IMG/VR virus record: IMGVR_UViG_3300030329_002170
Coordinates: 1-44,540 of that record
DNA length: 44,540 nt
Source of the DNA: a virus
Reading direction: 5' to 3' (one strand)
Numbering within the stretch: the first letter of the stretch is position 1; each line of letters opens with the position of its first letter. The translations under genes were made by a program, and so were the position numbers. Shown piece after piece: positions 6,399 through 44,540 of this stretch. The notes under the pieces were generated by a model. That model saw nothing but the letters and a program-made list of their open reading frames with translations, searched no databases and was not told the DNA's origin.

Positions 6399-6752
6399 TT
6401 ATTCACCTGTAAATGTACTACTATTTACTAATTCTTGAGCTTCTGTTTTAGTCAAAACGCTAAAATCTGGATAGCTAGAACTTGAACCTAAATCAGCTAG
6501 CTCTGATAGGGTTCCATTTTTCATAGACCATTCACCTTTAATAATAACATAAGATTTATCATATGAATATCTAGGCGACCCTACTTGACCACTCATTATA
6601 ATATCATACCATGTAGGTGCTGACTTATAAGTGACTTCTTCAGTTTCTTCATTAACTGATTCTACTATAGGGTATAACCCTTTTATTTTGTCACCAACAG
6701 CACTATTAAATGCGCTGCTAGGTATGCAAAAATACATTTCATAATGTGCCAT
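6399..6752 (-). CDS. Hypothetical virion-operon protein
   Basis: A 117-residue protein with mixed alpha/beta composition and several aromatic residues (MYFCIPSS, PTWYDIIMSG, SYVIIKGEWSM). The C-terminus is Ser/Thr-rich. Its start overlaps the stop of the large LamG gene (TAATG), so it is translationally coupled to it and might be a chaperone or attachment factor for that lectin-like protein. I do not recognise the family. Confidence 0.55.
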   Translation of the reverse strand: MAHYEMYFCIPSSAFNSAVGDKIKGLYPIVESVNEETEEVTYKSAPTWYDIIMSGQVGSPRYSYDKSYVIIKGEWSMKNGTLSELADLGSSSSYPDFSVLTKTEAQELVNSSTFTGE

Positions 6753-9373
6753 TATCTGTGACTCCTTTTACCTGCGTTGTAATTTCTTGTTATTTCTGCT
6801 TGTGATAATACTTTATCATAAATACATACATCATCTACTTCTCCAAAAAACCCTTCATTTTCAAGTGATGAATTATGTCTACCTATAGTTACTCCATCAA
6901 CAGCTGATACTGCATCCATATCAGCAGAAGTATCGCCATTTGTTGTATCACCTCCAGTTACTCCATTTAAATAGAGAGTTAATGCTCCACTACCATTATT
7001 ACTAGGGTCTCCATCAAAAGTACCAACAGTATGATACCAAGTACCTTCTGATAATGCACTATCAGTTACAGCATTAGCTAAGTTACCATTTTCTTCAATA
7101 TTAAATTGAAGTTTATTTGCGCTATTAACCATAAATCTCCACCCATCAGTATTATCATTTCTTGATAAAAAAACTTGAGCAGTTGAAGCTAAATGATGGA
7201 CTTTTATCCAACAACTTAAAGAAAAAGCATCTCCTACACCAATAAAAGCTAAATCATCATCTCCGCTAGCTTCTATTCTAGCATAATCAAATGTTCCATC
7301 TGGCATACCAGAATCATTAGCAAAATTCAAACTATTAGTAGTTCTTTGCCTATTCATCAAGAACCCTTGTGAATCTCTTGAGCTGTCTACACCTGCTGTA
7401 ATAAGCATTGTTTCGGTAACACTAGTTGGAGTTCCATCTCTATTATTAGCTGTTAAATCTTGCCAAGTTGCAACTCCATTATTCCTCCAATAACCTATTA
7501 AATTACTAGAAGCACTATGAGTTGTAGCATCAAGAGCTAAACCACTATTATATAATTCCGTTACCTCTGTTTGAGATAATTCTTTATTCCATATACAAGC
7601 TTCAGTAGTACTTCCATTTGCCCACTTAGTATTAGCCCCATCATTACCAATAGATACAACCGAACCAAGTTGTTCAGTAGCTGTATAACTACCACTTGCA
7701 AAATCAGCATCATCAAGTTTCTCTCCATTTATATAAAGAGCAAAACCAGAACTTGCCTCTGTATCATCTTTGGTTCCAACAAGATGTACCCATTTTCCAA
7801 CATAAGAAGCCATAGAAGTATTATACTTGCGTCCAATATAAGCATCTGTAGATTCATCAAAAGTAAAGAAATTTAATTTTTGGTCAGCAAAACTTACTCT
7901 AAATCCCCATTCTCTTGTTGAAGTACTACCATATTTATTTATTATAGGATAACCATCATCAATATTATTCATGAATACCCAAGCTGATACACTAAATGCG
8001 CTATCCGAACTACCATCACCAAAACTAAAGTCATTATGGTCAGCTATTGATACATGGTCAGCAGCCCCATCAAACCAAGCTAAATGATTATAAGATTGTA
8101 ATGCTGTTTGAGGTATATCAAGTTGTTGGTCTGCATCTGTCCAACCTGTTGCTGTTCCTATTTCTTTTAATGATATATCCTTAATCCAAAGTATATCACC
8201 TGAATCCATATTATTAAATCTAAAAGCAGCATTAGTAGCATGAGCGGCAACAAAGTCTTTTGTAAGAGTTGTAAAACTTGTTTCTGTAAGATTTGAGGTT
8301 TCAAAAGTACTGTCCCCTTTATTTATTTGCGCATTCATTGTAGTTCCATCATCTGTATTTATTTTATATGTATAAGTTAATCTATAACTTCTACCTACAG
8401 TTAAATCTGAATTTAAATCTGCAGCATTATTTAACATTAACTTAGCGCCATCATCGTTATCTGCATAGGTGATTTTCAAAGCACTAGTATCATTAGTCAT
8501 ACCATTACCTCCTTGCGCAACCCATGCTCCTGTACTATCACCATAATCTCCGACACCAGCATCAAATAAATCATCACCATAAAATACAGTTGTTGCGTTG
8601 TTTTTAGTTCCACCTGTATTAGAAGCATCAAGTACATAAGACTGGTTACCTCTATGACCATCGTTCATTGGATACCATAGTTTAAGATTAGAGTTAGTTA
8701 ATGATGTGCCGCTATTATTTAATGCTAATTGTTCTGGATTAAGATAATCATAGGTTACATCATCTTGAGTCCAAGCACCTTGCCATGCTTGCAAATCAGA
8801 CATTTTGCCAGCAAATGGAGAAGTTATTACGCCACTATCTATTTTAGCACCTATCATTTCTAAAGCTAAATCAGCATTATCTGAATCTGTAGCATTAGTT
8901 ATTGCTCCACTACCATCAGCTACACCGTTTACATAAAAGTTTATAGTATCAACACCATTAAATACATATACTGCTCTATACCAAGTACCTGGGTTTAATA
9001 CTGTATCTGCAACCCTCCAAGCACTTCCGCTTAAATCATATATAGTTAATTTTTCTGAACCATTTAAAGCAATCCACATAGGGACAGAAGTAGCCCCACC
9101 AGAATCATTGCGACCTAAAAAATATTGAGTAGCAGAACCTGCAGCATCAAAGTTAAACCAAAAAGCTATAGTCCAAGCTCTATTAGCAACTGTTGCTTCT
9201 GCTGAAACATCAACTAAACTTAAAACACTCCCACCATTTACATTTAAATAATCGGTGACACCATCAAACTCTAATGCTCTACCTGAATATATTTGTGCGT
9301 GATTGTTATTACCAGAAGTATCTAATGCTCTGGCTCGTGTTGGTTTTGCTATTGTTTGTATTGTAGTTGCCAT
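6752..9373 (-). CDS. Multi-LamG lectin-like virion protein
   Basis: An 873-residue protein with three LamG/concanavalin-A-like domains at about residues 30-215, 430-640 and 680-865. Each shows the alternation typical of the fold: a strand such as FDGAADHVSI, a WTIAFWFNF or SVSAWVFMNN strand, a GTWYHTVGTFDG strand, a LYLNG hairpin, and a closing EVDDVCIYDKVLSQAEI-type strand. Between domains 1 and 2 (about 285-410) is a jelly-roll-like module (VGRSYRLTYTYKI ... KDISLKEIG) shared with two other virion genes here. LamG domains usually bind glycans. It lies between capsid and neck genes and is coupled (TAATG) to both neighbours, so a head fibre or capsid-surface adhesin is more likely than a tail fibre. 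Confidence 0.8.
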   Translation of the reverse strand: MATTIQTIAKPTRARALDTSGNNNHAQIYSGRALEFDGVTDYLNVNGGSVLSLVDVSAEATVANRAWTIAFWFNFDAAGSATQYFLGRNDSGGATSVPMWIALNGSEKLTIYDLSGSAWRVADTVLNPGTWYRAVYVFNGVDTINFYVNGVADGSGAITNATDSDNADLALEMIGAKIDSGVITSPFAGKMSDLQAWQGAWTQDDVTYDYLNPEQLALNNSGTSLTNSNLKLWYPMNDGHRGNQSYVLDASNTGGTKNNATTVFYGDDLFDAGVGDYGDSTGAWVAQGGNGMTNDTSALKITYADNDDGAKLMLNNAADLNSDLTVGRSYRLTYTYKINTDDGTTMNAQINKGDSTFETSNLTETSFTTLTKDFVAAHATNAAFRFNNMDSGDILWIKDISLKEIGTATGWTDADQQLDIPQTALQSYNHLAWFDGAADHVSIADHNDFSFGDGSSDSAFSVSAWVFMNNIDDGYPIINKYGSTSTREWGFRVSFADQKLNFFTFDESTDAYIGRKYNTSMASYVGKWVHLVGTKDDTEASSGFALYINGEKLDDADFASGSYTATEQLGSVVSIGNDGANTKWANGSTTEACIWNKELSQTEVTELYNSGLALDATTHSASSNLIGYWRNNGVATWQDLTANNRDGTPTSVTETMLITAGVDSSRDSQGFLMNRQRTTNSLNFANDSGMPDGTFDYARIEASGDDDLAFIGVGDAFSLSCWIKVHHLASTAQVFLSRNDNTDGWRFMVNSANKLQFNIEENGNLANAVTDSALSEGTWYHTVGTFDGDPSNNGSGALTLYLNGVTGGDTTNGDTSADMDAVSAVDGVTIGRHNSSLENEGFFGEVDDVCIYDKVLSQAEITRNYNAGKRSHR

Positions 9374-10596
9374 TATTTTAGTACCCCATAATTTCCATTT
9401 ACTTCTTGAATAACAACATTATCTATAGTTCCAGTCCATCTAGTTCCTCCTGAACCAGAATAAAAATATACATTCTCATTTGCTCCTGCTACAAGATAAT
9501 ATATAACAGTACCATCAACTTGCGTACGACCTTTAACATTGTCTGTTACACTTCCACTATGAGCTTCCCCTAAGTATATTAACAAAGGATTACCATTAGT
9601 AGTAGAAACATCAACTGTAACTTTATAAAGTTTTCCTTCTGTTAATCCAGATGTAGCGCGATAAGCTGTATTATAACTATCAGTTGTATCTCGTCTAAGT
9701 TTACCATCGCTAATTGACCATCCTGAATTTAAAGTCCATCCTGAATCAGAAGACATATCGCCTCCTGTCATAACATCGCCTCCTAAAGTATCTCCACCTC
9801 CATGGTGATTATCAAACACATATTGGGTAGTCTCAGTACTTTCAGTTGTATCATCTATATCATAAGCTGAATCTAAATTCCACCATGATACTAAGTTTGT
9901 TTTTTCGCTAGATGTTAATCCAGCATAATTCTTGTTCATTATAGATTTAATTTGTGCTTGTGTTAATACTGACGACCACATACCAGTATTAGATATATAA
10001 CCCTCAAAAGACCTGTCTGCAAGAGTGCTTGCTCCTATATACAAGTTTTGAGAAGCATCATCTGACTTTGTCCCTGCAGGACCGCTTCCAATTTTTGTAA
10101 GAGCTACAATAGCTCCGTTTACATAGATTATAGGCTCATTAGATGTTGAATCATCATTATATGTAAGAGCAAAATGAGTCCAAGTATGTGTAGGAACTTC
10201 CCTAGCAGTAGTAGTCCATCTACCATAAGTAGTTGAATGACCAACCATAAAATTCAAATCAACAGCATTTGAGCTGTGGTCTTCAACTGTAAGTGACCAT
10301 CCATCAACACCATTACCTGCACTTGCTTTATCTAAGATTCTACCAAAATTACCTTGACCATCAGATATAGCGTATATCCATCCCGATATAGTTCCACCTC
10401 CATCAAATATATTATCAACACTTGAATCGGAGCCAATTAAAATATTATCATCATCACCATCAAAATATGCAGCACCATCACTTACAGGTATTACACTGCC
10501 TGCAGAATAATTGTGTTTTAATACTAGATTATCTGTTACTATACCAGGTGTAACCATCCCTGTAGAAGATAAGTTATTGCCTAATCCTAAAGACAT
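9373..10596 (-). CDS. LamG lectin-like virion protein with jelly-roll module
   Basis: A 407-residue protein with one LamG/concanavalin-A-like domain (about residues 35-235: GGTISGWIYAI, HTWTHFALTYND, EPIIYVNGAIVAL, FEGYISNTGMWSSVLT). A C-terminal jelly-roll-like module follows (about 275-400, EGKLYKVTVDVS ... TIDNVVIQEV). The same two module types are combined in the next gene, so the two are probably related by duplication and may form one surface structure. No signal peptide is present, as expected for a virion protein. Glycan binding is known for many LamG domains but is inferred here. Confidence 0.78.
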   Translation of the reverse strand: MSLGLGNNLSSTGMVTPGIVTDNLVLKHNYSAGSVIPVSDGAAYFDGDDDNILIGSDSSVDNIFDGGGTISGWIYAISDGQGNFGRILDKASAGNGVDGWSLTVEDHSSNAVDLNFMVGHSTTYGRWTTTAREVPTHTWTHFALTYNDDSTSNEPIIYVNGAIVALTKIGSGPAGTKSDDASQNLYIGASTLADRSFEGYISNTGMWSSVLTQAQIKSIMNKNYAGLTSSEKTNLVSWWNLDSAYDIDDTTESTETTQYVFDNHHGGGDTLGGDVMTGGDMSSDSGWTLNSGWSISDGKLRRDTTDSYNTAYRATSGLTEGKLYKVTVDVSTTNGNPLLIYLGEAHSGSVTDNVKGRTQVDGTVIYYLVAGANENVYFYSGSGGTRWTGTIDNVVIQEVNGNYGVLK

Positions 10597-30444: not shown

Positions 30445-30916
30445 AGCTTATATAGGAATAGACCCTGGAAAATCTGGAGGTATATGTTGTATTCAAGATA
30501 ATAGAATATGGGCTTCTAAATGCCCAGACTCTGTTCAGGGTATGGCAGACCTATTTAACAAAATTATAACAGATGTTCAAACTAAAGACATATCATTATG
30601 TATAGAAAAAGTATGGGCTATGCCACATGATGGTAAGAGTTCAATATTTACTTTTGGACAAAATTATGGCCAATGGGAGGGGGTTATTGCATCTTTTAAC
30701 ATAATCCCTATATATATAACCCCTTCCACTTGGATGAAGCATCATGAAGTAGAAAAGGGATTAAAGAAGCAAGAAAGAAAAAATATACTTAAACAAATGG
30801 CACAAGAATTTATTAATTCAAGTAGTTATATCTCATATCAATGGAAAGGAGTTGCTACTCTAGCTACTGCAGATGCGGTTATGATAGCAAAATACGCAAT
30901 TGATAACGCTGATTGA
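30419..30916 (+). CDS. RuvC-like Holliday junction resolvase
   Basis: A 165-residue RNase H-fold nuclease that cuts branched DNA before packaging or in recombination. The first acidic motif is YIGIDPGKSGG (D15), the second LCIEKVWAMP (E63) and the third ATADAVMIAKYA (D152), matching the RuvC catalytic set. The start overlaps the end of the helicase gene, and its first residues are encoded by the same bases as the helicase tip. Confidence 0.88.
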   Translation: MSQKTYHSKAYIGIDPGKSGGICCIQDNRIWASKCPDSVQGMADLFNKIITDVQTKDISLCIEKVWAMPHDGKSSIFTFGQNYGQWEGVIASFNIIPIYITPSTWMKHHEVEKGLKKQERKNILKQMAQEFINSSSYISYQWKGVATLATADAVMIAKYAIDNAD

Positions 30917-31358
30917 TATATATGATGTTTTTGGAGACCTTAATTTAATAACAAATGATGGAAGGAAAATACCGTTGGATTACGAAGAAATGAAAAAGTT
31001 TGACATTGACCTAGAATTTGGTAAAATGGGTGAGGACTTTGTCAGAGACCTACAAAATGGCAACAACATGATAGAGGTTAAAACAGAGAGAGATTTATGG
31101 AAAACTACAGGTAATATAGCTGTAGAAATAAGGTGTAGCGGCAAACCTAGCGGCATATCTACAACAGGTTCTAATATATGGATTCATTTATTATCTGATA
31201 ATGATAAGATTGTAGGTGGGTATATATTTAGTGTTGATTACTTAAAGCAAAAGATAATAGACCTCAAAAAAGAAGGTAAATTAAAGCTTGTAATGGGTGG
31301 AGACTTTAATGCAAGCCAAATGGCTTTGATACCAAGAACAGAATTATTTAAAACTTAA
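30900..31358 (+). CDS. PD-(D/E)XK family nuclease
   Basis: A 152-residue protein. A TTG start is proposed, overlapping the resolvase stop; no ribosome-binding site or upstream ATG in frame is evident. E45 in GKMGEDFV, MIEVKTE (E59-x-K61), then GNIAVEI and SGISTT followed by a Trp form a pattern common in small phage PD-(D/E)XK nucleases. It closes the plus-strand arm only 7 bases before the converging late arm. Probable role: DNA degradation or branch resolution. Confidence 0.75.
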   Translation: MITLIDIYDVFGDLNLITNDGRKIPLDYEEMKKFDIDLEFGKMGEDFVRDLQNGNNMIEVKTERDLWKTTGNIAVEIRCSGKPSGISTTGSNIWIHLLSDNDKIVGGYIFSVDYLKQKIIDLKKEGKLKLVMGGDFNASQMALIPRTELFKT

Positions 31359-31365
31359 ATTATTT

Positions 31366-34300
31366 TTAGTTATAAAACACAGAATATCTTTTGTAATTTT
31401 CTGAACTTGTTGTAGAATTAAGTAATTTTCTTTTTCTGTAGAAAAATTCATCTTTAGCTTTTTTATATCTAGTTCTAAGCTTATCGTTATTTAAATATTT
31501 TATAAATTCTTTTTCAGGATTCATTCCCTTATCTGTACTATAAGCATCAGATATTCTTGCAGGCCCATAACTATTTAAGTGTGCATCCAAAGCTTTCATA
31601 GTAGCTTTGTGTATTTGTTTAGTAGATAAACCTTGTGAATTGCCTTTATAATCTTTTATGTAAGTAGTAGCAATATAATTATAAGCCGCCCAGTACGCTC
31701 TATCAAAATCTTTCTGATTCCCATTATAAAAAGCATTTCTCAAGCTTCTATAAAAAGGTGTTCTATCTCCCATAAGGTATGGTCTGTCAAGGTTTTTATA
31801 TCCATTTTCTGTTTTCCATCGTCTAGCATAAGTATTAAACTCTTTGTAAGTTTTATAAAGTTTATCATTTTTCCAACCTAAACCAAATGGTTCTTGAAAG
31901 TTTTTTCTATACTGAGCATATAAAACTACTGTACTGCTTAAATAGTCATCAAGCGCTTGACCAACAAATTTTCTTTCTTCTGTTAAACCTAGTTGCGGCA
32001 AAAATGTTTGACCAAATAGACTAGCAGCGCTTGTTAAATTACCAATTACTGCACTACCATATATAGGATTAAAAGAGCTAGCCATCATCTGGTCATCATA
32101 ATTAAGAAAACTAAATTTATCTGATTTTGAAAAAAGACTATTTCCGTAAGGGTTTAATAACATATCTGTGCCTAGCTGCAGCCATTCCGAACGCCACAAA
32201 TAAGAAGATATTTTAGTTAAAGCATCTTCGTTTTCCATTGGATTTTTAGTCTCAAATAATGTATCATACATAGCCCATAACGCCCAACCAGATAAAGCAT
32301 TGCCTACTGTAGCTCTAGCTAAAGGAGCTATATTTTGATGCTTTACTATTGGCTTTAAATGGTTTTGATACATATCAAAAGTTGTAGAGTAGGCCATACG
32401 GTAAAAAAGCGATAAAGGTTTAATATAGCGGTTATTCATCCAATATGGTAAAAGTTGAGGGCCAGTCCCTCCAGACGTAGAAACGTGTGAATAATGCGAT
32501 ATTTTAGCTCTAATATAATCCATTTTACCTGTCATATCCGCATCAGCTAGTCCATCTTGTATTTTTCTGTAATTTTTTTTGTCTAATAAAAAATCTACTT
32601 CATCATCAGATAGCTTGAATACTTTTTTCCAGAAGTCTTTAATTTGTTTTTTAGGTGTGGTTGGAAGAATGTTTTTAATTCCATGAATTTTATCTAATTG
32701 TAATTCAAAAGTCATAAGGCCAGCTTGTACTTGAGCTACACGCCCCCAACTTTCTGTCTTAGTCATTAAGTTAAAATCAAACAATTTTTCCATGCTAAAT
32801 TCACCAAGATTAAATGGCAATTTAACAGCTTTATCTTGTAATGCTAAAGTTTTAGTTTGGTAAGTACTAAATCCTTCTCTTCTAGCTTTGTCCATTAAGC
32901 TTCCATAATTATTGTACAATCTCAAGAATGACCTTGCTGTATTTATTGCCCCAAATGTTCCTAAGCTTCTAGGAATAGTAATAAGTAAATTTTTAACTCC
33001 TGATGTAGGCGATGAAAGACCTGCAGCAGCAGATAGTGTAGAAGTTACAGATAGAAAATTAGTTATTGCATTCCCGTCGCTTCTAGTAATGCCTAATATT
33101 TCCTCTATTTGTTTTGCTGTCCATTTAGCTTGTTTGTTAGAAGACTTATGCATGTCTGCTAGTAAAGCTTTTCCTCCACCAGATATTTTAAACTTAGTTC
33201 CAAAATTAGTAAATTCTGGGAAAAATTTTGCTACTGATATAAATTTAGATGTTACAGTAGAATATCTATCCATGACACTTCCATAATCTTGGATATACGT
33301 TCTAACTTTTTTTGTTTTTTTGCCTGTTAATTTTTGTTTAATAATATTAACTGGTATTTCAGTTTCATAATCTAGTAATATACCTCTAGCTTTAAAGTGT
33401 TTATTAACAACCCTTGCAGGATTATAAGTCATAATGTTATAGGCTTCTTCTTTTATTGCCCTTAAAAGCCCTACATCATTTAAATTCTTTTCGTATTCTG
33501 CTTCCCATTTATTAGGATTATCTTTTTTGTTAAACTTTTTAGAGGCTATCTCACTAGCTCTTTCTTTTATTTTTTTGTTGGCAATCTTTACAATAATAGG
33601 GTTATTTGCTCCTGACGTTGCTATATATTGTAATACTTCTCTACTTACTGCTCTTGTCATGTAATTTTGTACATATTTTTGGTCAAACTCTTTTAACCAT
33701 TCTTCATATTGAAATTTAGTAGATTTTGCTTTTACTTCTTGCTTAACTCTTTTCCAGTAAAAGTCTGTCATTTGTCTGTGATAGTCTCTTGCAACAATGT
33801 GTTTTTGTGTAAAATTGTCTAGCTTATCAAAACCCTCATCATTCATGCTCCATAACTTTTTAGTTTTAGGGTTAACCAGGTCAAACGCTTCGATAGCTTT
33901 TCTTTCGTTAACAGTTAAAGGTCTACCTTTTTGAGTTCTCATATCAACCTCTAAAAGCTCCATATTATTTACATCATTACCTAATACTTCTTTTACTTTA
34001 ATAATAGTGTCATCAGCAAAAGCTTTATCTTTTGTGTAAACTACATCGTAATCTAATAAATCATCTGCTAATTTTTGTGAAGCTTTGCCTCCTTTAGATA
34101 AAACGTAGTATACTGGGAAAAAAAGTTTATTTAAACCAAATGATTGTATTCCTTGTTCTTCTGCAATATCTCTCATGCTAGGACTGTCAAAGTTAAAATC
34201 ATTAACTTTTTCATAGCTATTATAATACTGTTTAACCATATCTATAGTTTTTTGCCCTGAAATATTTTGTATCTCTCCATCTTTAACCCCTAAAGATTCT

Positions 34301-34422
34301 AGAAGCTTAACAGATTCAGATGCAGGAATATTTTGTTTTTTTCTTAATTTTTCTAAATTAAATTTAGGAATATAAAGTTCATCGTCATCTATTAGATTTA
34401 AGTTTAAGCATGCTTTTGCCAT
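31366..34422 (-). CDS. Large internal virion / ejection-type protein
   Basis: A 1,018-residue, mostly helical protein and the last gene of the late arm. The middle (about 500-520) and the stretch ARATVGNALSGWALWAMY (about 725-745) are hydrophobic enough to contact membrane. The segment SGGTGPQLLPYWMNNR (about 670-685) followed by a long helix resembles polyvalent-protein-associated domains (LPD38-like) found in ejected virion proteins. No lytic transglycosylase motif is visible. Coupled by TAATG to the 1,213-residue gene. A role in DNA ejection, like T7 gp15/gp16, is inferred from size, order and composition. Confidence 0.62.
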   Translation of the reverse strand: MAKACLNLNLIDDDELYIPKFNLEKLRKKQNIPASESVKLLESLGVKDGEIQNISGQKTIDMVKQYYNSYEKVNDFNFDSPSMRDIAEEQGIQSFGLNKLFFPVYYVLSKGGKASQKLADDLLDYDVVYTKDKAFADDTIIKVKEVLGNDVNNMELLEVDMRTQKGRPLTVNERKAIEAFDLVNPKTKKLWSMNDEGFDKLDNFTQKHIVARDYHRQMTDFYWKRVKQEVKAKSTKFQYEEWLKEFDQKYVQNYMTRAVSREVLQYIATSGANNPIIVKIANKKIKERASEIASKKFNKKDNPNKWEAEYEKNLNDVGLLRAIKEEAYNIMTYNPARVVNKHFKARGILLDYETEIPVNIIKQKLTGKKTKKVRTYIQDYGSVMDRYSTVTSKFISVAKFFPEFTNFGTKFKISGGGKALLADMHKSSNKQAKWTAKQIEEILGITRSDGNAITNFLSVTSTLSAAAGLSSPTSGVKNLLITIPRSLGTFGAINTARSFLRLYNNYGSLMDKARREGFSTYQTKTLALQDKAVKLPFNLGEFSMEKLFDFNLMTKTESWGRVAQVQAGLMTFELQLDKIHGIKNILPTTPKKQIKDFWKKVFKLSDDEVDFLLDKKNYRKIQDGLADADMTGKMDYIRAKISHYSHVSTSGGTGPQLLPYWMNNRYIKPLSLFYRMAYSTTFDMYQNHLKPIVKHQNIAPLARATVGNALSGWALWAMYDTLFETKNPMENEDALTKISSYLWRSEWLQLGTDMLLNPYGNSLFSKSDKFSFLNYDDQMMASSFNPIYGSAVIGNLTSAASLFGQTFLPQLGLTEERKFVGQALDDYLSSTVVLYAQYRKNFQEPFGLGWKNDKLYKTYKEFNTYARRWKTENGYKNLDRPYLMGDRTPFYRSLRNAFYNGNQKDFDRAYWAAYNYIATTYIKDYKGNSQGLSTKQIHKATMKALDAHLNSYGPARISDAYSTDKGMNPEKEFIKYLNNDKLRTRYKKAKDEFFYRKRKLLNSTTSSENYKRYSVFYN

Positions 34423-37400
34423 TATTTACACTCCATATCGTCTAATATTCTAGATACTACACCTTCATCGACCATGTCATCATCTAAACTTATTTTTTTC
34501 ATTTTTTTAATGTCCATATCAGTCATACCATAATGTTTTAAAATTAATTTTAAATTAGATTCATACTTTTTATTTCCAAGGTTTGCTCTTGAAAAGTCTC
34601 CATGTCGTCCGCCAGTAATTAATATTTTAGCTTTAGCTTTAAGAGTATTTATATCATCAGCAGAGTTTTTAGTTAAAGCTGATTTTTTAAATTTATCCCC
34701 AGGTTTAGTCTGTAATGTGTTAAAGTCTACATCATCCAGTCCTGCCCCAGACTTAATATTAAAACCTGTTTTTTTAGCTAAACTTTCAAGAGATTTAGAT
34801 ATAAAAACACCACTATCTGTAATAGGCATTTTTCTTTTATTATCTACTTTTGCAACAATATCAGTTATTCTTGCTGATGTTTCTGAAAATGTTCTAAATA
34901 AACCTTCTAAAACATGCTTATGTATTGCCATTTTTACAGACTTGCTTTTCGAATCTGTTATTATTTTACCATCTTTACTAAAGTAAATATAACCTTGCTT
35001 GTCTGCATTTTTTGCAATATTATTTAAATTTTCATAACCTTTTTTTAGTTGATATATAGAAATACCTTCTGCGTAATCTAAAGCCCCTTTAGCTAAACCA
35101 TATTTTTTTAGTTGAGCATCACTCATTTTTTCTAATTGACTTGATTTTTTACTATCAAAAATTAACTTTTGATATTCATTTTGTAATTTTTGTAAATCTT
35201 TAAAAGCTTTTGGGTTTTTAGGTAAACCTGTATTTTTGTCCATTTTAAGACCATCTACATAAGCTTTAGTTTCTTTTCCGTATTTTGCTAATTTGTGACC
35301 TAAACCAAACTTATCAACTAAAATAAACTTTTTACTTTCTATCCCATAATTACTTTCTACCCATGTAGAGAATCCTTTTCTATATGTTTTACCTGTAACA
35401 CCAAAAATAGATTGAGACAGTTGTTTAAATGTTTTTTCACCAATAACTTTGTTTGTAAGTTTATCGGAAAGCTTTGTTCTTGATTTTGCAAAAAATGGAA
35501 CAATAAACTGCTTTACTTGCTTTAAAGCATCTTCTCCTTGTATTTTGTTTTTTTTGGCTATTTTAAGAACTGATTTCATCAATCTAGAATAAGAAAGTTT
35601 TTCACCTATAGTGGCTTTTATTTTAGATGCAATTATACCTGCAACTCTTTTGCCTTTTGTTTTGCCCATTGGGTAAGAAACTTTAATTGTTCCATTTTTA
35701 AATTCAAAAGATTTACTTTCTATACCTATACCTAAAGGAGCTTTTTTTTGAGGGTCACTTTTATATAAAGTTGTTAAAGATTTTTTAACTGATGGGTTTG
35801 CTAATCCTTGAGAATCTAAAAACCTATAAAAACTTACTAAACCTAATTTTGGTTTTCCTGTTAATTTACTAGCGTAGTTTTCTAGCCTAGAACCTTTTAT
35901 ATTACCTAAAAAAGAATCATCTCCATCTTTAATCATATTAGTTATAATATCTAATACACCTTTAGCGTACTCCCTAACACCTCCAGGTCCTAGAATAGTT
36001 CCTGCGCCCGCGCCAGACTTCACTTGATACTCAGGCAAAATATCTGTAATAAAGGTTTGAGCCATAAGGAGGTTTTGTCTGGCCATATTTTTTTCAGAAT
36101 CTGTTAGATTTAAATCATCAAGCTTTTCAATTTCAATATCTATTTCTGACCTAATTTTGTCAGCCTCTTTTAAATTAAGCAAAATATCCTCTGCTGGACC
36201 TTCAGGGTCTTTTCTCATTTCATCTGAACGTCTTTTAATTTGAGCTTCTAATTGGTCGCTAGTTTGATTTAAATCTTCTATAACTCTATTTACATTAGCA
36301 TCATCTACAGGTTTAGCTACTTTTGTTCCTAGCTTTTCTTTTAACCTCATATCTAAAAAGTTAACAGTTTCTTCTAATATTTGACTGTCAGAAAAATTAG
36401 GATTTTCTTTTCTAAAAACATTTTCTACTTCATTTATATCAATATCTTGCGCACGTTTAATTTTGTCAGGGCCTGTAACATCCATTTTTAAGGTTGGACC
36501 CTCAGCCTCAAGCCTTTCTAAAAGTCTTATTTTTTTGTCACTTAAATCTGTTTTTTCAGCAGTTAATGATTTTAATGCATTTTCATTTCCTTGTTCCATC
36601 CATTTGTCTAAACGCTCTACCTCATCAAACATCTCACCAGCTTCATCAAAATAATTTCTTACTTTAGCAAAGGCAGCCATTCTTTTTTCATAAAATTCAA
36701 TTGCCTCTTTAGCACTTATTGGTTTACCTTCTTTTATTTTTCTACTATTATTTTTTTCAAACGCTTCTATTTCATCTAGAATTTCTAAATATTCTTTATA
36801 CTCTGGAGACTCTTCCCAAGCTTGCCTTCTTGAATCAATATCAGAAACAGTATCGTCAAATGACGATTGTTTTGCTTGGATTTCAGCGTCTGAGTCGAAT
36901 TGGTCTGCTGATTTTGCGTTTATACTATTTTGAATAGCCTCTTCTTTTTCTAAATATCTTTTTCTTTCTTCAAATTTTTGTTTGTATATTCTTTGTGCTT
37001 TTTCTAAAGGTTCGGCAACAGTTCTTTGAAGACCTATTCCAGCCAATCTAGTAGCTCCTGCAAAACCGCCCATAGTTAAAAGACTAGTCATCATTTCTTC
37101 TGCAGACTTTAGCTGACCATAAGCAACAGCTGTCCCTGTAATATCACCAAGTGTTAGTCCTGCAACGTCAGTAGCGTATTGACCTAATTGACCAGTATAT
37201 TTCATTTTGCTTTTTAAATTTATCAGTCTTTTTTGGCTGGCTCCAGTAAGCTTTTTTTGTAATTCCATATTATCAACAGTTCTTAACATTCTTGTGTGTT
37301 TAGCTGCTAAGAAGGGTCTTGTTGCTCCACCCATAACACCCATAATACCACCATGAACAATACTTGCAAAAGTTTCTTTTGTTATTTCCCCACTAGATAA

Positions 37401-38063
37401 AGGTTTTGGAAAGTTTTCTGGGTCTCTTATATGTTGAGTTCTAGCATACATATTACCTTTCATTCCCTCGTAAGGTATATACATCATTTCACTACCAATA
37501 ATATTTCTAATAGAAGACTCTATAGCTGCTCGCGATTTTTTTAAACCAGGAATTTTTTTAACTGCTTGTTTTGTTAAATATTTAATAGAACCTTTAGCTG
37601 CCCCTGTTGACAAAACTGCCCTACCTAAAATACTACCACCTCCAAATAGACTTAACGCATCAAGTGGCATACCAAAAGCCATGATTCCTGCAATAGCTTC
37701 CTCCCAAATAGCTGGTTGTCTTTCTAATGTAAATTTAGGTTTTCCTCTGGACAAGTCATCTACCATCCCTTGTAAGGACCTGCTATATGCTAGTCTTGCT
37801 AAAAAAGAACTATCCTCATCTATGCCATATAAATTAAACTTATCCATAAAACTATCTTCGTCTGTTTGTTTTAAGTAAACATCAGCAGGGTCTTTTTTTG
37901 GAATAGTAACAGTTTTGTAATTTATTTTGTCCCAGTCTTGTATAGGGGCATCAGGATATTTTTCTCTAGCTTCACGATAAACTTGCTCGTCAGTATAGTA
38001 TCTATACTTATTTGGAAAAGCGTCTCTTAGCTGTTGGATAGCACTTTCTGGGGATACAGGCAT
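34422..38063 (-). CDS. Very large internal virion protein with tyrosine-recombinase-like segment
   Basis: A 1,213-residue protein. Residues 115-345 include Gly/Ala-rich hydrophobic helices (EEAIAGIMAFGMPL, GGIMGVMGGATRPFL). Residues 350-700 are long charged coiled coils. Residues 700-945 look like a tyrosine recombinase: a core-binding-like stretch ending GLANPSV (N756), a beta-hairpin with basic turn GKTKGKR (K801 region), then K892-T-Y-R895 with GFSTW, LGH (H923) and TKAY (Y935). The canonical first arginine is not apparent. The remaining C-terminus is Lys-rich. By position it is an ejected internal protein, 1 base from a 494-residue coiled-coil gene. Confidence 0.65.
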   Translation of the reverse strand: MPVSPESAIQQLRDAFPNKYRYYTDEQVYREAREKYPDAPIQDWDKINYKTVTIPKKDPADVYLKQTDEDSFMDKFNLYGIDEDSSFLARLAYSRSLQGMVDDLSRGKPKFTLERQPAIWEEAIAGIMAFGMPLDALSLFGGGSILGRAVLSTGAAKGSIKYLTKQAVKKIPGLKKSRAAIESSIRNIIGSEMMYIPYEGMKGNMYARTQHIRDPENFPKPLSSGEITKETFASIVHGGIMGVMGGATRPFLAAKHTRMLRTVDNMELQKKLTGASQKRLINLKSKMKYTGQLGQYATDVAGLTLGDITGTAVAYGQLKSAEEMMTSLLTMGGFAGATRLAGIGLQRTVAEPLEKAQRIYKQKFEERKRYLEKEEAIQNSINAKSADQFDSDAEIQAKQSSFDDTVSDIDSRRQAWEESPEYKEYLEILDEIEAFEKNNSRKIKEGKPISAKEAIEFYEKRMAAFAKVRNYFDEAGEMFDEVERLDKWMEQGNENALKSLTAEKTDLSDKKIRLLERLEAEGPTLKMDVTGPDKIKRAQDIDINEVENVFRKENPNFSDSQILEETVNFLDMRLKEKLGTKVAKPVDDANVNRVIEDLNQTSDQLEAQIKRRSDEMRKDPEGPAEDILLNLKEADKIRSEIDIEIEKLDDLNLTDSEKNMARQNLLMAQTFITDILPEYQVKSGAGAGTILGPGGVREYAKGVLDIITNMIKDGDDSFLGNIKGSRLENYASKLTGKPKLGLVSFYRFLDSQGLANPSVKKSLTTLYKSDPQKKAPLGIGIESKSFEFKNGTIKVSYPMGKTKGKRVAGIIASKIKATIGEKLSYSRLMKSVLKIAKKNKIQGEDALKQVKQFIVPFFAKSRTKLSDKLTNKVIGEKTFKQLSQSIFGVTGKTYRKGFSTWVESNYGIESKKFILVDKFGLGHKLAKYGKETKAYVDGLKMDKNTGLPKNPKAFKDLQKLQNEYQKLIFDSKKSSQLEKMSDAQLKKYGLAKGALDYAEGISIYQLKKGYENLNNIAKNADKQGYIYFSKDGKIITDSKSKSVKMAIHKHVLEGLFRTFSETSARITDIVAKVDNKRKMPITDSGVFISKSLESLAKKTGFNIKSGAGLDDVDFNTLQTKPGDKFKKSALTKNSADDINTLKAKAKILITGGRHGDFSRANLGNKKYESNLKLILKHYGMTDMDIKKMKKISLDDDMVDEGVVSRILDDMECK

Positions 38064-41651: not shown

Positions 41652-43319
41652 TTAAATTGTATACCTCCAAACGCTTGAAGCTGTAGTATAGCTTAATTTT
41701 GTAGCAGGGTCAACGCTAATTCTTACTCTATCCCCAGCACTAAATGATACTTGGTCATCAGCTAGTGTTGTAAAGTCAAAAGTAGCAGATGTTTCGTTAG
41801 ATAAAGTAACCTGAACAAAACTTTTATCAGAGCCATTTACTCTTAAAAGCATTCTTGTTGCTCCTGCATCTCCTGTGCTACTTCCATGATGAATTACTAA
41901 TTTTATTAATTTTCCATTGTATGGAGGAATAAATAATGTGTCATCATTAGTATTATCTCCAGTAGAGTTACCTTCAATATTTGATGGTCCAAATGGAAGA
42001 TAATCTTGGTTAGCATCTGTTGTTACAAACATATGTAATTGAACATCATAAAAATAACTATCTACATAATCTTTTACTGCAGCAGATGTAGGTATGCTTG
42101 TATCATTATCATTACTTCCAATACCGTCAGCTTCATCAACAAATTTTAATATGCTTATAGATTCTCCACTATCAGTTAAAGTTCCAAATGAAACAATACC
42201 TGAAGCTGATACATTAGGTGCAGCTAAAGTCCCTGTTATTGTTAAATTTCCATTATCAGCTAATGAAAACTCAGGACTACTAGTTAAATCTGCATTACTA
42301 GAAATTCTTAATATATCATCACTAGCATCTAATACACCTACAGACCAATCATGTTGAGCGCCTCGATAAAATTGAAGAGAATTTTGAGTAGGAGGCCCAA
42401 CAATTCTAAGCGCATAATTTGCTGAATTATCATCGTATGAAAATTTCACAACATTACTTGTTGATGTATTTATTACAGGTCTAGCTGCAGAACCATCAGT
42501 AGCTCCTGTTATTTCAGGATTAGTAAACATAGTTGCTTTAGATTCATTAGTAACATTACCTAAATCTAAAGAAGATTTAACTGCATCAAAATTAGCACCA
42601 CCTAATAAAGTGACTACATTAGCACTTAAACTTGTTAAACCTGTGCCTCCATTACCTGCAGGAAGAGTCCCAGTTACATCATTTGCCATATCTACATTAC
42701 TTAAACTGTTTCCTGTACCATTAGCATCAAATGTTTTATTTGTTAAAGTGTCTGTTGAAGTTGCAGTTATGCCGCCTACATCCGACGCGGCTAAAGCAGT
42801 ACCATTAATTTTAAATTGCTTTCCTGATGCTAAATTTAAATCACTACTTACACCAACTTTTCCTGTGCCAGCAGGAACAATATCTATATCTGCATCATCT
42901 CCATCTGTTATTGTAATTGTACCTGTATCGCTATTACCTGTCTGTAAAACAAGGTTGTGATTTCCGTTTGACTCTAAGGTTACATTTGCATCTCCGTTAC
43001 CAAGTGCAATATTTCCTGCATCATTTTTTATACCAATTGCAGCGGCACCACCTGACTGTCTAAGTAAAACTTTATCTACAACAGGAATGTTATTTGTTTT
43101 ATTTGATAATCTTTTAACTTCTTTTTCTAATCTTTGTATTGTTCCTACTAAACTTCTTAAATCAATATCTAAATCAATACCATGCCACTTATTAGATTCT
43201 TTAACATAAAGTTTTAAACCTCTTATAGATGAACGTATAGTCATATCTCCATTTTGACCTTCAGAGTTTTGTGGAGTGCCTTTACCTATTGTTATTCCTC
43301 TTGGTTCTGGAATTGCCAT
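41652..43319 (-). CDS. Tail fibre protein
   Basis: A 555-residue fibre. The N-terminus (residues 1-50, EPRGITIGKGTPQNSEGQNG) is probably the virion-attachment part, followed by a coiled coil (VGTIQRLEKEVKRLSNKTNN, about 58-77). Repetitive beta-rich shaft sequences come next (STDTLTNKTFDANGTGNSLS, TLPAGNGGTGL), typical of trimeric fibres. The C-terminal part (about 425-555), beginning FYDVQLHMFVTTDANQDYLP, is a beta domain likely to bind the receptor. Coupled by TAATG to the preceding gene. Confidence 0.82.
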   Translation of the reverse strand: MAIPEPRGITIGKGTPQNSEGQNGDMTIRSSIRGLKLYVKESNKWHGIDLDIDLRSLVGTIQRLEKEVKRLSNKTNNIPVVDKVLLRQSGGAAAIGIKNDAGNIALGNGDANVTLESNGNHNLVLQTGNSDTGTITITDGDDADIDIVPAGTGKVGVSSDLNLASGKQFKINGTALAASDVGGITATSTDTLTNKTFDANGTGNSLSNVDMANDVTGTLPAGNGGTGLTSLSANVVTLLGGANFDAVKSSLDLGNVTNESKATMFTNPEITGATDGSAARPVINTSTSNVVKFSYDDNSANYALRIVGPPTQNSLQFYRGAQHDWSVGVLDASDDILRISSNADLTSSPEFSLADNGNLTITGTLAAPNVSASGIVSFGTLTDSGESISILKFVDEADGIGSNDNDTSIPTSAAVKDYVDSYFYDVQLHMFVTTDANQDYLPFGPSNIEGNSTGDNTNDDTLFIPPYNGKLIKLVIHHGSSTGDAGATRMLLRVNGSDKSFVQVTLSNETSATFDFTTLADDQVSFSAGDRVRISVDPATKLSYTTASSVWRYTI

Positions 43320-44251: not shown

Positions 44252-44540
44252 TATAACTCCGTTTCTGTGTTACCTATTATAGTATCTGTAGGATTAGATA
44301 ATGCATACCAATTAAATAAATTATCATGTTGGGTTATAGCTCCATTGTTAATATCATAAATATAACCACTACTAGCAGCACCAGAAATATTTGTTGTTAG
44401 TATAATTATTTTATTAGAAAACTTATCGTAACCTACAATAATAGGTCTTTTAAAATCTTCATTAGTTAACCAATTGTTTATTCTAAACTTATTAGAGCTA
44501 ACATTGCTTAATTTATCTCCATCATAAAAATAAATACCTA
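44251..44540 (-). CDS. Tail stabilisation / nozzle-like protein, C-terminal end (same gene as 1-3310)
   Basis: The frame enters from the right edge and stops at 44251-44253 (TAA). Codons in 44442-44539 duplicate those at 1-98. The part from 44441 downward adds 63 residues (beginning IVGYDKFSNKIII) plus the stop to the gene that starts at 3310, giving 1,166 residues in all. The last strand pattern looks like the end of a propeller blade. The stop overlaps the ATG of the 310-residue tail gene. Confidence 0.85.
   Translation of the reverse strand, partial: GIYFYDGDKLSNVSSNKFRINNWLTNEDFKRPIIVGYDKFSNKIIILTTNISGAASSGYIYDINNGAITQHDNLFNWYALSNPTDTIIGNTETEL
44442..44539. repeat. Terminal overlap, right copy
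   Basis: Identical to bases 1-98. The final base, 44540 (A), disagrees with base 99 (T), so the overlap is 98 bases with one extra unmatched terminal base. Confidence 0.95.

Follow-up and report, generated by a model that had tools for sequence, protein, structure and literature searches.

A probable circularly permuted tyrosine recombinase within a large protein of an uncultured marine phage

Our sequence comparisons indicate that residues ~694–1085 of a 1,213-aa phage protein are likely to form a tyrosine recombinase whose catalytic domain is circularly permuted. The enzyme would probably be active, and it is part of a polyvalent-type protein that would be ejected with the genome. The region contains, in this order, a core-binding domain, a lysine-bearing beta-hairpin, an HxxR box, an LGH box, the tyrosine, a linker and then the box I helix, which is TxxRxxE-like and has its arginine (R1065) located C-terminal to the tyrosine. 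This permuted order is found in the 1,213-aa protein, in its split relatives and in twelve giant proteins of the same lineage (L123, L124, L126, L129, L130, L133, L134, L138, L152, L220, L223, and L225, several of which are near relatives of one another and one of which, L130, is a fragment); QTGPRLNEV and ETNARIGEL are examples of the permuted box I helix. The window analysed is the whole of IMG/VR record IMGVR_UViG_3300030329_002170, 44,540 bases of a marine phage, and the features under discussion are these:

34422–38063, minus strand: gene of the 1,213-aa protein, an open reading frame equivalent to the first half of the fused giant in relatives
37539–38063, minus strand: N-terminal region, residues 1–175, of which 9–175 and 81–170 match frames of 2236 and 2274 aa
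35754–35984, minus strand: SAM-like core-binding domain, residues ~694–770, similar to the canonical core-binding region
35640–35696, minus strand: beta-hairpin with K801, residues 790–808, first in rank with the hairpin profile and invariant in 15 aligned rows
35376–35390, minus strand: (H/K)xxR box, with K892 variable and R895 invariant, from the alignment and the HxxR profile
35295–35303, minus strand: LGH box with H923, second in rank with the LGH profile
35259–35261, minus strand: Y935, the presumed nucleophile, first in rank with the tyrosine profile and invariant
34944–35216, minus strand: helical linker from the tyrosine to box I, residues 950–1040, from AlphaFold2 secondary structure and homologous in the permuted giants
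34839–34931, minus strand: displaced box I helix, residues 1045–1075, with R1065, first in rank with the box I profile and invariant
31366–34422, minus strand: gene of a 1,018-aa protein that matches the second half of giants of 2236, 2273, and ~1950 aa

An identical 98-base terminal repeat at positions 1–98 and 44442–44539 suggests that the genome is probably complete and circularly assembled, and a 1,103-aa frame that runs past the start of the record shows that the molecule was opened within a gene. The genome encodes a P22-like portal, an SU10-like major capsid protein and a large terminase, together with a DnaB helicase, a Sak-like annealing protein and a PD-(D/E)XK nuclease. Given that the terminase shares less than about 27% identity with the terminases of the sequenced phages that rank best, we place the phage in an uncultured lineage without close isolates; a host search with two queries across 84,980 species genomes returned no relative. 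We recognised no lysogeny genes in the phage genome, and no separate PF00589 integrase is detectable in the 44,540-base record, in agreement with an earlier note on this DNA.

Few relatives span the whole 1,213-aa protein: three near ones have 78–98% identity, and examination of terminase neighbours and further scans yielded others at about 36–48% (L094, L095, L108–L110, L112, and L115). Identities of 98, 79, 48, and 38% were recorded along this series, the last of them in L115 too. Elsewhere in the lineage, as in L096, L097, and L122–L134, the 1,213-aa protein and the 1,018-aa protein that follows it are fused into a single chain of about 2,200 residues (mostly 1,950–2,900). We collected about two dozen of these giants, mostly through a conserved neighbouring nuclease-like gene. 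In the window this gene (30900–31358, plus strand) encodes a conserved 152-aa protein with the motif EVKTERDxWKTTGN, nuclease-like by eye; in those relatives that were inspected it is convergent with the genes of the giant protein, and its product is 57–97% identical within the lineage and has more than 550 matches in IMG/VR. The part of the 1,213-aa protein that still matches the fused giants is the N-terminal region, which hydropathy analysis shows to have a single hydrophobic stretch (residues 123–141). The recombinase-like region sits between the N- and C-terminal parts of the giants and is followed in many of them by an HExxH zincin-like motif. This motif is found in 15 of 24 giants and is absent from all five split proteins examined, including the 1,213-aa form, as if the splitting of the gene had replaced proteolytic processing; the split forms are one clade and hence count as one event. 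Two shorter giants, L105 (1,620 aa) and L141 (1,637 aa), have no recognised recombinase region.

Searched as a single sequence, the 1,213-aa protein has only chance-level matches in Pfam, NCBIfam, PHROGs and PDB, none of them to an integrase family, and tblastn against 50,697 phage records returned nothing for the protein or for its C-terminal part; the similarity to recombinases thus becomes visible only when relatives are included. In profile–profile comparison with 15 canonical recombinases (lambda Int, XerC, XerD, FimB/E, and phage integrases), the core-binding domain and the K-hairpin-to-Tyr segment of the combined family are colinear with the reference set (P = 3.5e-9; reversed control 0.81). 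The K-hairpin-to-Tyr segment alone gives P = 1.9e-6 (reversed 0.17), and a core-binding domain is present ahead of the catalytic domain (P = 6e-5 against the canonical core-binding region). The box I piece by itself is too short to reach significance (P of 0.06–0.25) but, where it aligns, does so onto canonical box I. Between the 1,213-aa group and the permuted giants the homology is colinear (P = 2.5e-21; reversed 0.02–0.11), and it holds for residues 955–1100 as well (P = 6.6e-11).

The fused giants carry recognisable recombinases at the same place. Many have the canonical order there and others have the shuffled order, giants being assigned to the canonical or the permuted class from motifs read by eye. 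The canonical-order giants as a group are colinear with the 15 canonical recombinases (P = 1.2e-9), and the core-binding domain exceeds the Pfam cut-off in one of them, L096 (PF02899, E = 2.2e-5), and in the permuted giant L133. Matches to PF00589 in L116 (1.6e-7), L127 (1e-4) and L138 (1.8e-4) are all under the curated cut-off, and that to the permuted L138 spans profile positions 43–137 only.

Motif evidence was obtained by sliding five short profiles, built from the 15 canonical enzymes only, along the permuted alignment. K801, R895, H923, and Y935 had been named beforehand in the earlier note, and R1065 was chosen after inspection of the same sequences and before the profile test. R1065 is the best of 371 columns with the box I profile (z = 6.9, the next column reaching 3.1), and 300 shuffled profiles gave a maximum z of 5.7. 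K801 ranks first of 374 columns with the hairpin profile, Y935 first of 380 with the tyrosine profile, H923 second of 382 with the LGH profile, and R895 sixth of 378 with the HxxR profile. When proteins are scored one by one, the box I site comes first to third among 1,200–2,400 positions for 8 of 12 (L094, L110, L123, L124, L129, L134, L138, and L152); it ranks 6th in L095, 9th in the 1,213-aa protein and in L133, and 51st in L115. A codon check places N756-P757, K801, K892, R895, H923, and Y935 exactly where they had been reported. The P-values with their clean reversed controls and the motif ranks indicate that the likeness of residues 700–945 to a recombinase is more than chance, and the earlier assignment to the tyrosine recombinases is supported by the profile comparisons, by the motif profiles and by the recombinases that occupy this place in the fused giants.

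The same note took the fold to be degenerate or repurposed, with the first arginine missing. This alternative holds that box I was lost, that the domain cuts no DNA and only binds it in the virion or during ejection, and that R1065 lies in an unrelated helix. The absence of box I from its usual place speaks for it, as do the non-significant P-values of the box I piece alone, the variability of two catalytic positions and the lack of a fold match by Foldseek. The variable positions are K892, which is K, Q, S, or R among relatives, and H923, the column of which holds H in 10, D in 4 and Q in 1 of 15 rows; N756 is not conserved among relatives either. The conservation of the remaining residues argues for the opposite. 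In a 15-row alignment with a median pairwise identity of 21% and a minimum of 15%, six gap-free columns are fully invariant, and four of the six are K801, R895, Y935, and R1065; the chance of these four named columns falling among the six is 5.6e-8, R1065 having been named from the same sequences. R-K-R-Y is the tetrad of tyrosine recombinases. In an 18-row MAFFT alignment only the tyrosine and the box I arginine are invariant, with R895 conserved in at least 90% of rows. The catalytic order is K-R-H-Y-R in all 15 rows (the 1,213-aa protein and 14 others), and none follows the canonical R-K-HxxR-H-Y. The region is under purifying selection, with dN/dS of about 0.2–0.35 in the larger comparisons. 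Invariant residues combined with purifying selection are the pattern expected of an active enzyme and not of a discarded fold, and a dead domain would not need to keep the tyrosine, the lysine and both arginines amid near-total change; the box I profile score of R1065 likewise counts against a lost box I.

We therefore regard a degenerate fold as unlikely. The first arginine is indeed absent from its usual place, as had been claimed, but a box I helix with R1065 lies C-terminally, so that the description as degenerate is probably wrong because the arginine moved and was not lost. With respect to the four residues for which conservation had been proposed as a check, two (R895 and Y935) are invariant, two-thirds of the rows retain H923, and K892 has been dropped as a catalytic residue because relatives do not retain it. 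Three further candidates were set aside: a box I at K774, before the hairpin with canonical spacing, which distant relatives do not conserve; a full second recombinase at residues 1045–1213, where only box I is conserved; and a zincin remnant at the C-terminal end of the 1,213-aa protein, for which the comparison gave no support (P = 0.27).

A second alternative is that the region comprises two tandem copies, the first keeping the K-hairpin-to-Tyr part and the second only the N-terminal helices with box I, so that the active site would be completed between copies or subunits and not by a true permutation inside a single fold. Duplication followed by loss is a standard route to permutation, there are helices between Y935 and R1065, and the split forms have a hairpin-like stretch after R1065 (NKRKMPIT / RVDIPVS). 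However, we see no second conserved HxxR-LGH-Y set after R1065, and no more than about 100 residues separate box I from the zincin region that comes after it in the permuted giants; we accordingly judge tandem copies to be quite improbable. That the protein contains no recombinase, being a helical ejection protein with motifs arisen by chance, is very improbable: direct Pfam, PDB and Foldseek matches are absent for the 1,213-aa sequence and neither predicted model matches any structure, but the profile P-values with clean reversed controls, the motif ranks and the matches of relatives at the same place to PF02899 (above cut-off) and PF00589 (below cut-off) all speak against it.

Structure prediction with AlphaFold2 is poor for the segment of the 1,213-aa protein (8 sequences, pLDDT 55) and fairly confident for the relative L134 (18 sequences, pLDDT 78.7, pTM 0.72). 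The L134 model has the elements to be expected of a recombinase: four N-terminal helices, a hairpin at the lysine, and helices that carry HxxR and GH and precede box I, with the tyrosine loop in a low-confidence region. Foldseek found no convincing recombinase match for the L134 model in PDB or among viral models and nothing for the poor model; the method requires the same chain order, and a permuted fold can therefore be missed.

On a quick tree built from the C-terminal half that all share, the permuted and canonical orders require four changes, of which at least two are forced by well-supported branches. Permuted L123, L124, L129, L134, and L138 are scattered relative to canonical L096, L097, L101, L122, and L127, and the 1,213-aa clade is placed apart from the permuted giants L123–L134. 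This scatter suggests exchange of recombinase modules between lineages, which is the simplest reading of the tree; repeated permutation appears less likely.

If the region is a permuted recombinase, the fold would bring R1065, K801, R895, H923, and Y935 into one ordinary active site, in which Y935 would attack a DNA phosphate to form a 3'-phosphotyrosine link, the two arginines would hold the phosphate, K801 would serve as the acid and the strand would then be rejoined. Given a recombinase with a core-binding domain in a giant protein among structural genes, and no recognised lysogeny genes, we posit that the enzyme most likely acts on the entering genome: it would work at once on incoming phage DNA and not in prophage integration, with relaxation, end joining, or circularisation (perhaps site-specific) of a terminally redundant genome as candidate outcomes. 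On the fuller proposal, that a competent permuted recombinase is carried in the virion and injected by a phage of lytic type, with canonical and permuted versions swapped in one slot of the giant family, we are evenly divided.

The proposed region shares with tyrosine recombinases and phage integrases (PF00589 with SAM-like PF02899/PF13495; lambda Int, XerC, XerD) a core-binding and a catalytic domain and, by profiles, the K-hairpin, the arginine, to some extent the histidine, the tyrosine and the box I arginine. It differs in its order (K-R-H-Y-R, against R-K-R-H-Y), in being embedded in a giant phage protein and in that the H/K of HxxR is not conserved. Type IB topoisomerases, which belong to the same superfamily, would have the same chemistry, but the SAM-like core-binding domain favours the recombinase side. 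The podovirus ejection (pilot) proteins, such as P22 gp7/16/20 and T7 gp14-16, are large and encoded among structural genes, as is the 1,213-aa protein, here with P22-like portal and terminase families; sequence searches found no homology between it and them. By this analogy the 1,213-aa product probably belongs to the internal (pilot) proteins of the virion and leaves it together with the genome. Polyvalent proteins (Iyer et al. 2017, PMC5512222) are large phage proteins that combine unrelated enzymatic domains, commonly including a zincin, and are presumed to enter the host along with the DNA. The fused relatives are likewise large and would combine a recombinase with, in most of them, a zincin-like motif after it, unlike the split 1,213-aa form. 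Carriage in the virion and action after ejection are thus plausible from gene position, giant-protein architecture and the analogy with polyvalent and ejection proteins.

The words 'integrase', 'recombinase' and 'tyrosine recombinase' are all absent from the main text of PMC5512222, and searches of open-access papers showed no title or abstract that reports a natural circular permutation of a tyrosine recombinase catalytic domain or a virion-borne tyrosine recombinase. If our proposal is true, the injected protein would bring a pre-loaded recombinase that acts ahead of any phage gene expression, which would add an enzyme type to the injected polyvalent-type proteins and offer a testable route for DNA processing on entry by uncultured marine phages. 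A single protein slot that naturally holds both permuted and unpermuted versions would also provide material for studying how far the fold tolerates rewiring.

Elsewhere in the window, a 555-aa protein (41652–43319, minus strand) has its first ~108 residues 62–74% conserved in three relatives while the remainder diverges, a pattern that resembles that of a receptor-binding protein with a fixed anchor. Two genes (6752–9373 and 9373–10596, both minus strand) encode proteins with Laminin_G_3 (ConA-like lectin) domains; three stretches pass the domain threshold in the product of the former and one in that of the latter.
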